Shown piece after piece: positions 2,156 through 48,189 of a stretch of DNA of 64,000 nucleotides. The stretch is from Loxodes magnus (taxonomy: Eukaryota; Ciliophora; Karyorelictea; Loxodida; Loxodidae): NCBI GenBank assembly GCA_946699065.1, contig CAMPDV010002442.1:1-64000 (forward strand), read 5' to 3'. The notes under the pieces are model-generated. The model was given only the letters and a program-made list of their open reading frames with translations. It made no database searches and had not been told where the DNA came from. Position 1 is the first letter of the stretch, and every line of letters begins with the position of its first letter. Made by a program: the position numbers and the translations under genes.

Positions 2156-5100
2156 ATGTCAGAACTTTAAGCTCCAGTAGATTTTATGACTTCACCAGAT
2201 AACTTAGATACAAATTTGTAGTCGTAAAGAGATTAACTTAAAGACCTTAATTTGGAAAAATCTGGTTTTGACATGAAAGAAAAAGTTTAAGAAATAGAAT
2301 CTCCGTCTAAGAGGATAAAATAAAAAGCTTCTCCATTTATTAATGAGGTTGAAGAAAACGAAGGAATGTTCAACATTTTTAAAGAAACAACTTCAGGTGA
2401 AAGATTTCTTTTATTTGTTGGAACAGTATTTGCTATATGCATAGGTGCTATTACTCCACTTTTTGCAGAAACTTTTGGATAGGTTTCAAGCAGTTTAGGA
2501 CCAACGTCTACTAGATTCACCATTTACGAAGATATTAGAGATGTTTCTGTTAATCTATTTAGTATATGCTTAGTTCAACTGCTTTTCAGCTTTATTTATA
2601 CCACTTGCTTTGTTTATGTATCCGTTCAAATGTCTATAAAAATGAGAAACAAGTTTTTATAAGCTATTTTAAGCTAAGAGTAAGCATGGTTTGATAAATA
2701 GCCAGACATAAGTGGTTTAGCTACTAGATTAAATATAGACTGTGATCAAGTTTAGAAAGGTACTGGAGCTAAACTAGCTAAAATCATAACTGATTTTAGT
2801 TAAATGATTGTTGGTTTTGCATATAGTTTCTATAAAGGATGGCAACTTGCTCTTGTTCTTTCAGGTTTACTTCCTTTCTGCATCGGGGCAGGATATTGGT
2901 GGATTAAAAGACTACAAGCCACAAATAAATTGAAAAAAGAAGCGTATACGCAAGCAGGAGGATTAGCAGAAGAAGTTTTAGGTAACATAAAAACAGTAGC
3001 AGCTTTCAATGGATAACTGAAAGAATACACCAAATACGAAAATTCTCTTCAACAAGTCTTAAGTAAATCTCTTAGAAACAACTTTGTGTTTGCAATAGGA
3101 GGAGCATTATTCTTTTTCTTTTTTATACTAGTCCATTGCTTAACTTATTTTGCAGGAAGTCACTTTATTGACTTGGAATTAGAAATAAGAGGTGAAAAGT
3201 ATGATGCTGGTGTTGTTTTAGCCGTTAATCTTTGCATGATGATAGCTTGCTTTTCTCTTACAATGGGACTTCCTTGTCTTAAAGAGTTTTACGATGCACT
3301 CAGCGCTAGTAAAAATTTATATTCCATTATTAATAGAAAATCATAAATTGATTTATATACTGGAAAGATAGTATAGAAGCTCGAAGGAAGAATAGAGTTT
3401 AGAGATGTTTGCTTTAAGTATGAAAATTAAGAAAATTACGTACTAAATCATTTCAATTTGACTATTGAAGCTGGCCAAACTTTTGCTTTGTGTGGTCCAT
3501 CAGGATAAGGAAAATCAACGGTCATTTCTCTTCTATAAAGGTTTTATGACCCTAATTCAGGAGAAATCTTGTTAGATGATTAGAATATTTAACTTTTGAA
3601 TTTCTCTCACGTAAGAAATTTCATTTCCTTGGTTGGCTAAGAACCAGTACTTTTTTCAGGAACAATTGAAGATAATATTAGATTTGGTAGTTTGCAAGCA
3701 ACTGAAGAATAAATAATACTAGCAGCTTAATAAGCTTAAATTCATAGCTTTATTTTAAGCAACAAGGAGGGATATAAAACTTTTATTAATGCAGGAGGAA
3801 GTAACTTATCTGGTGGCTAAAAGTAAAGAATAGCCATTGCTAGAGCAATTGTAAAAGATCCTAAAATTCTTTTACTAGATGAGGCAACAAGTGCTTTAGA
3901 TAGAGAAGGCGAGAAAGAAGTGTAAAAAGCTATAAATTCAGTGAAATATGGAAGAACTGTTTTTATAATAGCTCATAGACTTGTAACAATTTAAAGCGCG
4001 GATAAAATAGGTGTTATAAATCAAGGAAGAATATGGCAACTTGGAACACATTAATCTTTGATGGCAGAAGAAGGTATTTATAGAAGTTTAGCAGCTGCTG
4101 ATGAAATGGCTACTAAAGAAAGAAAGAAGAAAGAGAAAAAAGTATAAGTATAACAAGATGAAATCTTTTTGCAAGAAACCAAATCTTTAACTTCTATTAA
4201 TGAGACAAATGAACAATAAAAAAATGCAATTTCAAGAAGTTTTGCTGTAATAAAAAATAAATTATGGTTTTTAGTAATAGGATGCTTAGGCGCTTGTGGC
4301 AACGGATGTGGATATCCAATGTAAGGAATGCTTATGATTTAAAGTATGGAAACTTTAAGTGAGTTCGGAGATGATTATGAGAAGAAAAATAATATGACCA
4401 GTTTGTTTTGGTTTTTGCTTGCTATATACTTACTATTAATATTTTTTACCTAAGTTAGTTGCTTTGGATCATTTAGTGAACATTTAACTGACAAGCTTCG
4501 AAGATTATCAATGCAAAGTGTTCTTTACTAAGATGTTGGATACTTTGATCATGAGAAAAATAGTTCAATCAAAGTTTGCTAGAGACTTTAAGATGATTGT
4601 GTGAAAGTAAATGGGGCTGCAGGTTAAGTTTTTGGTACAATATTTATGTCTTTATTTGCAGTTTTTGGAGGCCTTGCTGTTTGCTTTATTTTTTGCTATT
4701 GAGTTGGAATTTTAATGATAGTGAGCATTCCTATAAACGGTCTTTTCATAATTACTGCAGCTAGAATTGAGTTTTTAGGAGAAGTAGGGAATACTTCATC
4801 TTAGGAAACTTCACAAATTGCAAGTGAAGCTATAGTAAATGTCAAAACAGTAAAATCATGCAATAATGAGTAATATATTGCATAAAAGTTCGCAGAAACT
4901 CTTCAAAAAAATAGCGTTAATTCATAATATCAATCTTGCTCAAGTGGGATTGTTTTAGGAATGGCTAGATTTGTGATGTGGGGTATGTTCGCTATGTTTT
5001 TTATATTTGGAGCTTTTATTTAGAGAGATGATGAATCATTCAAATTTAAGGAAACAATGATTGCTTTAATGTCTGCTATTTTTGGATTCTTAGCTATAGG

Positions 5101-5944
5101 AGACACTCAAATTTATGCTCCAGACATGATCGGTGGAAAAACAGCTGCGGCGTCAATATGGAAAACTATTGATTAGAAACCAAAATTAACTGGATAATTA
5201 GAAAATAAACCTCAGATAACTGGAAGAATAGAATTCAGTAAAGTCGAGTTCAAATATCCTACTAGGCCTGATCAATAAATTCTAAAATCCTTTGACTTAA
5301 TTATAGATGAAAATAAAACAACAGCTTTAGTTGGCTATAGTGGAAATGGAAAATCAACTATAATTTCTTTAATTTTAAGATATTATGAAATTGAAAGTGG
5401 AACTATTATCTTCAACACTTCAAATGGACCTTAAAACTTATAAGATATCAATATATACCACTTGAGGAGTTAGATTGGACTTGTAGGATAAGAACCTGTA
5501 CTCTTCTAAGGGACAGTAGCAGACAACATTTAGTATGGAAGAGAAGGTGATATTGAAAAAATTAAGGAATGCGCTTAAATTGCTAATATCAACCTTGAAA
5601 GATGTCCTTTAGATAAAGAAGTAGGGTTGAAGGGAAGTCATGTTTCCGGAGGAGAAAAGCAAAGAATCGCTATAGCAAGAGCAATATTTGCAAATCCAAA
5701 ATTAATGCTATTAGACGAAGCAACGAGTGCACTAGATAAGGAAACGGAAATCAAGGTTTAGGAATCAATATAAGCAGCTTTTAAAAATCGCACAGTTGTA
5801 GTGATAGCTCATAGACTAAGCACAATTAAAGAAGCAGATTAGATTTGCGTTATAAACGAGGGTAAAGTTGTTGAGCAGGGGACTCATAATGCTTTACTTT
5901 CCCATGAAGGACTTTATTATCGTTTAGTCAGATCTATGGCATGA
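2156..5944 (+). CDS. ABC transporter, B subfamily, full-length (TMD-NBD-TMD-NBD)
   Basis: A membrane ATP-driven exporter of the P-glycoprotein/ABCB type, 1262 residues, the usual length for a full transporter. It reads as one uninterrupted frame if TAA and TAG are Gln, with no intron visible. TMD1 contains the family motif [19 protein letters not shown]1 has Walker A GPSGQGKST at about 447-455 (its Q is TAA), LSGGQ at 551 and [12 protein letters not shown] at 571. NBD2 has GYSGNGKST at 1060, VSGGEKQR at 1163, [12 protein letters not shown] at 1183 and the H-loop AHRLST. Residue 849 is TGA (4700-4702), at the site where relatives have the conserved Trp of the GW-L motif. Termination is also TGA (5942-5944), right after the usual GLYYRLV end. 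The start is the first in-frame ATG that leaves a typical cytosolic N-terminus. Substrate unknown. Confidence 0.95.
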
Positions 5945-6351: not shown

Positions 6352-6657
6352 CGATAATTGAAAAGATGGTGGGAGCTGAGAATCACCTTCATGACAACAC
6401 TTTCTGGTTTTATGGCTAGGAACAAGTTCCTTTCCTGTCGTTGAGAAAGTCCCTGGTCAGAGTTATTTTCTGAAGGGAACGCTGTCTTTGAGATTATCCG
6501 CTCTTGGTAGGGGCTTGAAGCCTGGCTGCTCATATGGAGCTCCCTAGCAGCTGTGTCTGGAGCACAACAGGATATCCCCGTTATTCCATAAAAAGAGAGC
6601 GTCGGGTCGTGCAATCGGAAAGGAGTTTCCGGTCCAAAAACTTTTTTAGTTGAAATG
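6352..6657. repeat. Family B short repeat, copy 1 (about 306 bp)
   Basis: A relatively G+C-rich block beginning near AAAAGATGGTGGGAGCTGAG and ending near GGTCCAAAAACTTTTTTAGTT. Copies lie at 47888-48189 (same orientation) and 38675-38988 (opposite, more diverged). It is flanked by a direct repeat of about 23 bp, 6329-6351 and 6658-6680, which marks insertion by target duplication. It contains an open stretch of 95 codons on the minus strand, which I do not take as a gene. Polarity is unknown, since neither end has the UAC-bulge hairpin. Confidence 0.7.
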
Positions 6658-30569: not shown

Positions 30570-31054
30570 AACTATAATATAAATGATGTCGATATTTTTA
30601 TAATTTATCATTTTTAATATTTAGCATTAAAATTTTCATACTTATATAAATATAGATTTAGATAAAATTTAATATATATGATTATCAAAATTTATTAAAT
30701 ATTTTATAATTAATATACCAACAAAATAAATCTCACTTTATTATTAATAAATTTAAAATTTAAGAGAAGCTTTTAATAGCTTTCAAATATCTAGCTTAAA
30801 GGTTCGTATTGAAATAAGCAAAAAAATGTCATCTTCCTAGATAAAAAATTAATTAAGAAATTATAAATGAGCTTAGTGTTTTCTATTCCTTTTTAGTAGG
30901 TATTTCATAAATGAAATTTTAAAATATTTTTATATGAACTAAGAGGTAAATAAATTCTACTTTAAACTTATTTATCTTAATTAGCAAATTATTTATATAG
31001 ATATGACTTAATTGCTTATTAAGATAAAATTAATAATAGAAATAAAACAAAAAA

Positions 31055-31126
31055 GCCTCCACGCGGGCTCGAACCACGGACCTTTCGCTTACTAAGCGAA
31101 TGCTCTGCCAACTGAGCCATAGAGGC
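31055..31126 (-). tRNA. tRNA-Thr (anticodon AGU)
   Basis: A complete 72-nt cloverleaf on the minus strand. Acceptor GCCTCTA pairs with the 3' strand before GGAGGC; the D arm is GGCTCAGTTGGCAGAGC; the anticodon stem TTCGC/GCGAA encloses the loop TTAGTAA (anticodon AGT); the T arm is CCGTGGTTCGAGCCCGCG-like with the GGTTCGA B box. No intron and no encoded CCA. A T6 run directly follows (31049-31054 complement), as expected for a Pol III terminator. Confidence 0.95.
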
Positions 31127-32455
31127 TTGTTAATATAAACATTGTTGAAATTATTTAAACTAATCTAAAATACTCTATAAAATCATAAAATAGCAGACTA
31201 TATATTTTTTCAACTTAAAAGAAATTATTAGTTTATTTTGCTTATTTTTTAATTCTAATATTTAGAAGCAAAGTTATATTAAAGTTAAACTGATCACATA
31301 ATGGATTTTTATATGCTTATTAATTTATTTCACCAACTAATTTAAAAAAGACCTATAAAATTGAAAATTATGAAAGATTTAGATTAAAATTTTAGTAATG
31401 TGATTTTACTACTAATAGCTTACTTTTTGAGCCTATTTTAATAACTAAAGTTAAAATAAAATTGATAAATATCTTCATTTAGATTTTTAAAGATCTCAAG
31501 CATAGCTAATATCTTTTTTAATAATTAAAATATAAAAATAAAAACTTCACCAAGTAGCATTGACTTTCTTTGAAAATGTTTATAAAGTGAAATTTTCTAA
31601 ATTTAAAATTAACTAACTAATGTAAAAAGTTCTTTAATACTAAGAATCTAATTAATAAAACTTGATATAAATGATGATATTTTTGAATTAAATTAAATTG
31701 CTTTGCAATCAGTTGAATTTTAGGCATTTTTATTAATTTTATTATATGATTGTTTTATTCTTTTCATATTCATTATAGAAGATATCTCAAATAAGATTAT
31801 TTTTATTTAATTTCAACTATTTTAATATTTTTAACTAGCGAAAATTTTTAAAGACCTCTATCCTCAAATTTTATCTCATTTAATTAGTTAATATAGATTA
31901 ATATATCTATATTATATTTTCATATAGATAATACAAATATTTATTATTTATTCCAGTTATCAATCCATTTCCTATTTCTTTTATTTTTCTTCTTCTTACT
32001 TTTATTTTATCCTAGTCATACTAATATTGCTGCAGTTCATAAAAATTGCAAATTTAACTAGAGATCTTCAATTCTCCTTCTTAATAATTTTTGATCAAAG
32101 CTTTTATATTTTAAAAATGATTTATTAGACTATTTTTAAGTATGAAAATTTAGCTAAAATAATTTTTTTTATATATTAAGATCTTTAGTAATCATATATT
32201 TTTAATCTTAGACTTACTAAATAAGATATTGCAGATTTTCACATATTTAATGTTGATCAAAGATATCTAACTCTCCACAGAGGTAGACATAAAAGCTTAA
32301 TTTGAATTGTTTTAATTATAAATATATAAGAATTATAGCAATTTTTTCAAAATTTGTATTCAGCAAATATTTCTCTGCTCCTAAATTTGTTTAACTTGTT
32401 TGTATTAATTTGAAATATCATGCTTTTATCAAAGTCTATTAAATAATAATAAATA
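31127..32455. other. AT-rich DNA without recognised genes
   Basis: No coding or RNA signal supported between the tRNA and repeat A3. Confidence 0.45.
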
Positions 32456-38674: not shown

Positions 38675-38988
38675 TTAATTAATTTTAAGCTAAAAGAGTT
38701 TTTGGACTGCAACTTCTTGCAGTTTAACGACCCCAACACTCCCTTCATGGGATAACGGGGATATCCTGTTACTTTCGATAAGCAGCTGCCAGGGAGCTCC
38801 ATCGCTATGGGCAGCCAGGCTTCAAGCCCTTACCAGGAGTGGATAATCAAGAGGAAGGCGTTCCTTTGCAAAGGTTGACTTTGACCAGGGACTTTCTCAG
38901 CGACAGAAAAGGAACTTGTTCCTAGCCATAAAAACCAGATAGTATGATTCAGAAGGTCAATCTCAGCTCCCACCATCTTTTTAATTAT
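38675..38988. repeat. Family B short repeat, copy 2
   Basis: Opposite orientation to B1 and B3 and the most diverged of the three, with a different far end near 38695-38740. Flanked by an imperfect direct repeat of about 21 bp (38654-38674, 38989-39009), so it inserted independently. Confidence 0.65.
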
Positions 38989-47887: not shown

Positions 47888-48189
47888 ATTGAAAAGATGG
47901 TGGGAGCTGAGAATCACCTTCATGACAACACTTTCTGGTTTTATGGCTAGGAACAAGTTCCTTTCTTGTCGCTGAGAAAGTCCCTGGTCAGAGTCATTTT
48001 CTGAAGGGGAACACTGTCTTTGAGATTATCCGCTCTTGGTAGGGGCTTGAAGCCTGGCTGCTCATATGGAGCTCCCTAGCAGCTGTGCCTGGAGCACAAC
48101 AGGATATCCCCGTTATTCCATAAAAAGAGAGCGTCGTGTCGTGCAATCGGAAAGGAGTTTCCGGTCCAAAAACTTTTTTAGTTGAAATT
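47888..48189. repeat. Family B short repeat, copy 3 (right arm only)
   Basis: Nearly identical to B1 (6352-6657). The flanks share an A/T direct repeat of about 20 bp (47866-47885 and 48190-48210). Absent from the left arm, so it came after the duplication. Its site is almost the same as that of E2/A2 in the left arm. Confidence 0.72.

Follow-up and report, generated by a model that had tools for sequence, protein, structure and literature searches.

The karyorelict ciliates, Loxodes included, are described as using NCBI genetic code table 27, in which UGA is the sole stop codon and is also read as Trp when the poly-A tail is far enough downstream of it (PMC11441545); the karyorelict code is reported in PMC4967479 as well. 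For Loxodes magnus itself there is a macronuclear assembly of 706 Mbp, built from HiFi reads, and the accompanying paper gives short 3'-UTRs (mean 53 bp), a G+C content of 33.5% in coding sequence versus 18.6% in 3'-UTRs, and a depletion of both UGA and UAA over the 20 or so codons that precede the stop (PMC11441545). As to the tRNA, UGA decoding in Blastocrithidia and Condylostoma has been linked to a 4-bp anticodon stem, and Loxodes is listed among the carriers of a tRNA-Trp with such a stem, with Swart et al. given as the source (PMC13092985, PMC12005148).

The locus considered here lies in a 64,000-nt stretch of L. magnus DNA, positions 1 to 64,000 of contig CAMPDV010002442.1 (here C2442) of assembly GCA_946699065.1. 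We call this stretch the window; the genome searched was the whole assembly, 705,730,643 bp in 7843 contigs. The window contains a transporter gene with an in-frame TGA at codon 849 (Table 1). We regard it as almost certain that this TGA is a normal Trp codon in a working ABCB-type gene, read by the karyorelict code of the L. magnus macronuclear genome. The sequence evidence is of five kinds: TGA at Trp columns, divergence among gene copies that is silent only, a terminal TGA where one is expected, tRNA genes with 4-bp anticodon stems, and the failure of the patterns tried to detect a UCA gene.

Table 1. Coordinates of features in the window
Feature	Position	Strand	Remark
Predicted ABCB-type full ABC transporter, TAA/TAG read as Gln, internal TGA as Trp	2156..5944	+	1262 codons, closed by TGA
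In-frame TGA, codon 849, read as probable Trp	4700..4702	+	
Terminal TGA (stop, codon 1263)	5942..5944	+	1242 nt downstream of codon 849
Best ABC_membrane stretch, residues 86-339	2411..3172	+	second ABC_membrane stretch also reported
Best ABC_tran stretch, residues 430-579	3443..3892	+	second ABC_tran stretch also reported
tRNA-Thr(AGU) gene	31053-31127	-	sole Rfam match above cut-off in window

The transporter gene starts with the ATG at 2156-2158 on the plus strand, and its 1262 codons before the stop include 45 TAA, 14 TAG, 1 TGA, 9 TGG, 22 CAA and 2 CAG. The original prediction described a 1262-residue frame that is open when TAA and TAG are read as Gln, with the TGA of codon 849 as the only other interruption, and a TGA stop at the expected place. 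Both statements proved correct, the latter because homology to ABCB4 reaches residue 1260 of 1262 in a single HMMER stretch that begins at residue 64. The 59 TAA and TAG codons, taken as Gln as in table 27, lie in an open frame with full-length homology. Structures of ABCB1 and ABCB4 are matched by the product with a best E of 2.9e-209 (HMMER), and two ABC_membrane and two ABC_tran domains are found on the one chain. The G+C content is 31.8% in the gene and 20% in the 100 nt past the stop, and the last 33 codons are without TAA, TAG or TGA; in composition and in its stop-proximal codons the gene agrees with what the L. magnus paper describes (PMC11441545). From its sequence, the transporter is very probably an ordinary working ABCB-type gene.

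Is codon 849 a Trp position? The TGA had been placed at a Trp conserved among ABCB proteins, and this is right with respect to the closer paralogs and one residue off with respect to mammalian ABCB1. Among paralogs in the genome, column 849 is TGG in three copies (two on C3 and one at C605:82303) and TAT, for Tyr, in two (C704 and C169). In the gapless HMMER alignment, inspected by eye, the mammalian ABCB1 Trp of TMD2 (YGWQLTL) is aligned with Tyr848 and the Gln that follows it with codon 849, so that the mammalian Trp precedes the putative Trp849 by one residue. Judged from these sequences, the column is not strictly a Trp column.

The question whether TGA occurs at conserved Trp columns elsewhere can be put to other genes. 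Taking the window gene together with four long-open paralogs (L043-L046), seven of the nine TGA codons stand at columns where another copy has TGG, namely columns 178, 249 (four times), 704 and 849; the other two are at column 244, a non-Trp column, in two near-identical paralogs. In a broken pair of relatives (L047/L049), one TGA stands at Trp column 1002 and two more fall at other positions. Protein kinases give a second sample. A search for PF00069 scored 136 matches among 5592 first-look candidates, and the best 20 of the 136 by score, some of them close paralogs, comprise 5093 residues with 47 TGG and 13 TGA codons. At the invariant Trp column of these best 20, which we take to be that of the DxWS stretch, there are 16 TGG, four TGA and no other codon. 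Two more columns with a Trp majority contribute three and one TGA, so that eight of the 13 TGA codons in the best 20 fall in three Trp columns, which together hold less than 1% of the residues; among the remaining five, two are at columns where TGG is in the minority and three at columns without TGG. With close paralogs in the sample, binomial probabilities would overstate this evidence. As for ABC_tran domains, TGA is present in four of the 19 matches in the genome, and TAA or TAG is found in most ABC_tran and kinase matches. The original prediction that UGA is Trp inside genes and stop at their ends, as in table 27, draws its support from these Trp-column TGA codons in ABCB paralogs and kinases, and from the silent-only divergence of the transporter copies described below. 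The outcome named beforehand as refuting it, an absence of TGA from conserved Trp columns in other genes, was not what we saw.

A protein search of the genome gives 51 matches to the transporter. Four are full-length with the top score: the window gene and copies on C605, C1535 and C2446. Codon 849 is TGA in all four, and all four end in TGA at the end of homology, in keeping with UGA as the stop codon of table 27. No difference from the window is seen in the C605 copy across the 6786 bases compared; the two may be a single locus that was assembled twice. Compared with the window, the frame has 6 changed positions in C1535 and 9 in C2446. They fall at nine distinct sites, every one of them a silent transition. 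About 36% of the possible transitions in the frame would be silent, and if sites are independent, nine silent sites out of nine would arise by chance about once in 10,000 times.

Decayed or broken relatives of the transporter, including several partial copies, were also seen, at C2442:66115-69896, just past the window, and at C605:80492-100632. The former lies on the minus strand, starts 2.1 kb beyond the end of the window and is represented by two pieces, L048 and L050.

These data bear on other explanations of the TGA. One might think that an in-frame TGA marks a gene that is dying, in which UGA means only stop and codon 849 is a nonsense mutation. The neighborhood lends this some color: 25 of the 26 TGA codons of the decayed pieces L048 and L050 are scattered outside the Trp columns and column 849, and the remaining one, in L050, is at column 849 itself. 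Some of these TGA codons are frame effects, because the pieces overlap in different frames. The window frame, in contrast, is open over its full length, its copies differ only by the nine silent changes, and TGA also occurs at the invariant kinase Trp, so that a dying gene, an alternative raised with the original prediction, is very improbable. Its second alternative, a sequencing or assembly error at the codon, is more improbable still. The identical C605 copy speaks little against an error if it is the same locus assembled twice, but the C1535 and C2446 copies, each distinct from the window and from the other in silent sites and flanks, keep the TGA, and the published L. magnus assembly is from HiFi reads (PMC11441545). 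Might UGA849 instead encode selenocysteine? In Parduczia and Condylostoma UGA does have this use, together with a SECIS element (PMC4967479). The aligned intact paralogs, however, have Trp or Tyr at column 849 and not Cys, and at the kinase column it is Trp that TGA replaces; we give selenocysteine hardly any weight.

If the TGA is a Trp codon, what reads it? The original prediction proposed a tRNA-Trp(UCA) gene as a check, and the patterns tried found none; found instead was a tRNA-Trp(CCA) with a 4-bp anticodon stem. A tRNA pattern with the UCA anticodon has no match in the genome, and the identical pattern with CCA has two. When either anticodon is allowed, the same two are matched, both CCA. 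Starting from the UCA form and allowing three mismatches, a further search yields 76 matches. Every one has CCA; 72 are on C148, three on C110 and one on C7736. A single 29-nt core is common to the 72 matches on C148: its anticodon stem has four good pairs beneath an unpaired U-C at the top. Seven of the 72 were examined whole, four in L093 and one each in L094, L097 and L098; ARAGORN calls each a tRNA-Trp(CCA), the Rfam tRNA score is 58.9 bits for each, and the U-C top pair is present in all seven. A tRNA-Trp(CCA) with a 4-bp anticodon stem is reportedly that described by Kachale et al. 2023 for Blastocrithidia nonstop and Condylostoma magnum. The 72 C148 matches lie within C148:155450-209574 (L093, L094, L097, L098), many of them in tandem at a repeat length of about 241 bp, and a T-run follows each copy examined whole.

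The three C110 copies (L091, L092 and L095) have an anticodon stem of five pairs, and ARAGORN calls them tRNA-Trp. Each has an oddity in the T-arm: L091 has one base too many, L092 a non-standard pair and L095 an altered T-loop. Their Rfam scores are 60.4, 59.6 and 51.2 bits, as against 58.9 for the 4-bp array form, and since L091 and L092 score as well as the 4-bp form, these 5-bp copies of tRNA-Trp(CCA) may work too. The C7736 copy has an inner mismatch, scores 44 bits and is without an ARAGORN call.

We infer that the most likely decoder of UGA849 is the tRNA-Trp(CCA) with the 4-bp stem. The other candidate is a tRNA-Trp with the cognate UCA anticodon, from the nucleus or the mitochondrion; the reading of the code would then be right and the decoder different. 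Ciliate mitochondria do encode a tRNA-Trp(UCA) (PMC4967479). Absence of a tRNA-Trp(UCA) is not proved by the searches, because the patterns cover only tRNA-Trp-like sequences and a divergent UCA gene would be missed. Other patterns help little: the loosest gives 768 matches versus 1720 in a reversed control, so it is swamped by noise and uninformative, and a TTCA..GGTTCRA pattern gives two matches, neither called a tRNA by ARAGORN. Nothing was found in a DNA search of the genome with an approximate human tRNA-Trp sequence. Against a UCA decoder stand the two CCA matches and none with UCA from the matched pattern, and the exclusive recovery of CCA by both the either-anticodon and the three-mismatch searches. 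On balance we consider a UCA decoder quite unlikely.

A search of the genome for the eRF1 domain gives three matches, one on C2, which is the best, and two on C196. The C2 match resembles pelota/Dom34, to judge from its residues, and the two on C196 may be eRF1. One tentative scheme, which we would rate as somewhat unlikely, is that Trp decoding is split, with the amplified 4-bp-stem array reading both UGA and UGG, and the few 5-bp copies, with their T-arm faults, possibly fading. On this scheme the dosage of the tRNA versus the release factor would help to set the sense reading of UGA. The case for a special role of the Trp array is weakened because tRNA-Lys(UUU) genes are arrayed too and tandem repeats may be misassembled. 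Of 42,786 first-look candidates for tRNA, 63 were scored in an Rfam search, and in the 12 of 30 excised loci that were run in ARAGORN the matched gene was always tRNA-Lys(UUU). Many near-identical tRNA-Lys(UUU) genes are present on C103, C78, C158 and other contigs (L009-L038); some are regularly spaced, at 527 bp or about 1752 bp, and some adjoin tRNA-Ala(UGC). Arrayed tRNA genes look to be common in the L. magnus genome. In the article passages covered here we noticed no published report of a copy number for the tRNA-Trp array.

How, then, would the transporter mRNA be read? UAA and UAG would be decoded as Gln throughout. UGA would mean stop close to the 3' end of the mRNA and Trp well away from it, so that UGA849, 1242 nt before the stop, would be decoded as Trp. 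The decoder would be the tRNA-Trp(CCA) from the array on another contig, with U27-C43 unpaired and an anticodon stem of 4 bp. Termination by 3'-end context is inferred, and is taken from the literature.

Two other parts of the window deserve mention. At 6362-6650 the AT-rich sequence is interrupted by a stretch of some 290 bp that is rich in G+C and has a T-run at its end. An 18-nt piece of this stretch recurs at 38809-38826 (minus strand) and 48046-48063 (plus strand), where 0.00 recurrences are expected. No Rfam family matches the stretch at E<=1, and its fold is no better than that of shuffled sequences (z -0.21); perhaps it is a dispersed repeat. At 31-1014 there is a large imperfect inverted repeat, whose arms (31-106/939-1014, 109-164/883-938 and 184-273/770-859) are 77-80% complementary, and which encloses short CAGTATTGAACA-like direct repeats at 597-708. 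It is similar to a foldback or MITE-type element.

What does the in-frame TGA add? It is the correct reading of a known system, and the biological news is small, because the karyorelict code and the 4-bp-stem tRNA-Trp of Loxodes are already in print. Starting from one in-frame TGA, sense UGA, terminal UGA and a probable decoding tRNA are here linked within one genome. For annotation, an in-frame TGA by itself is no mark of a pseudogene in the L. magnus genome.

Comparison with described systems can be made at three levels. As a protein, the predicted transporter has the two membrane and two nucleotide-binding domains of ABCB1 and ABCB4. At the level of the tRNA, the C148 array has the CCA anticodon and unpaired top stem pair of the B. 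nonstop and C. magnum tRNA-Trp, and the top pair of U and C is also that of Amoebophrya sp., reportedly identical to that of C. magnum (PMC13092985/PMC12005148). In contrast to B. nonstop and C. magnum, 72 matches are arrayed here on one contig and three 5-bp copies lie on another, and the reading of UGA is a prediction. At the level of the code, the window gene has what is described for Parduczia sp. and Loxodes under table 27, UAA and UAG as Gln and UGA as Trp inside and stop at the end, and the sequence past its stop is likewise short and AT-rich. We see no difference between the window gene and the table 27 systems; it is an instance of table 27, and very probably one that is contained in the published L. 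magnus assembly.
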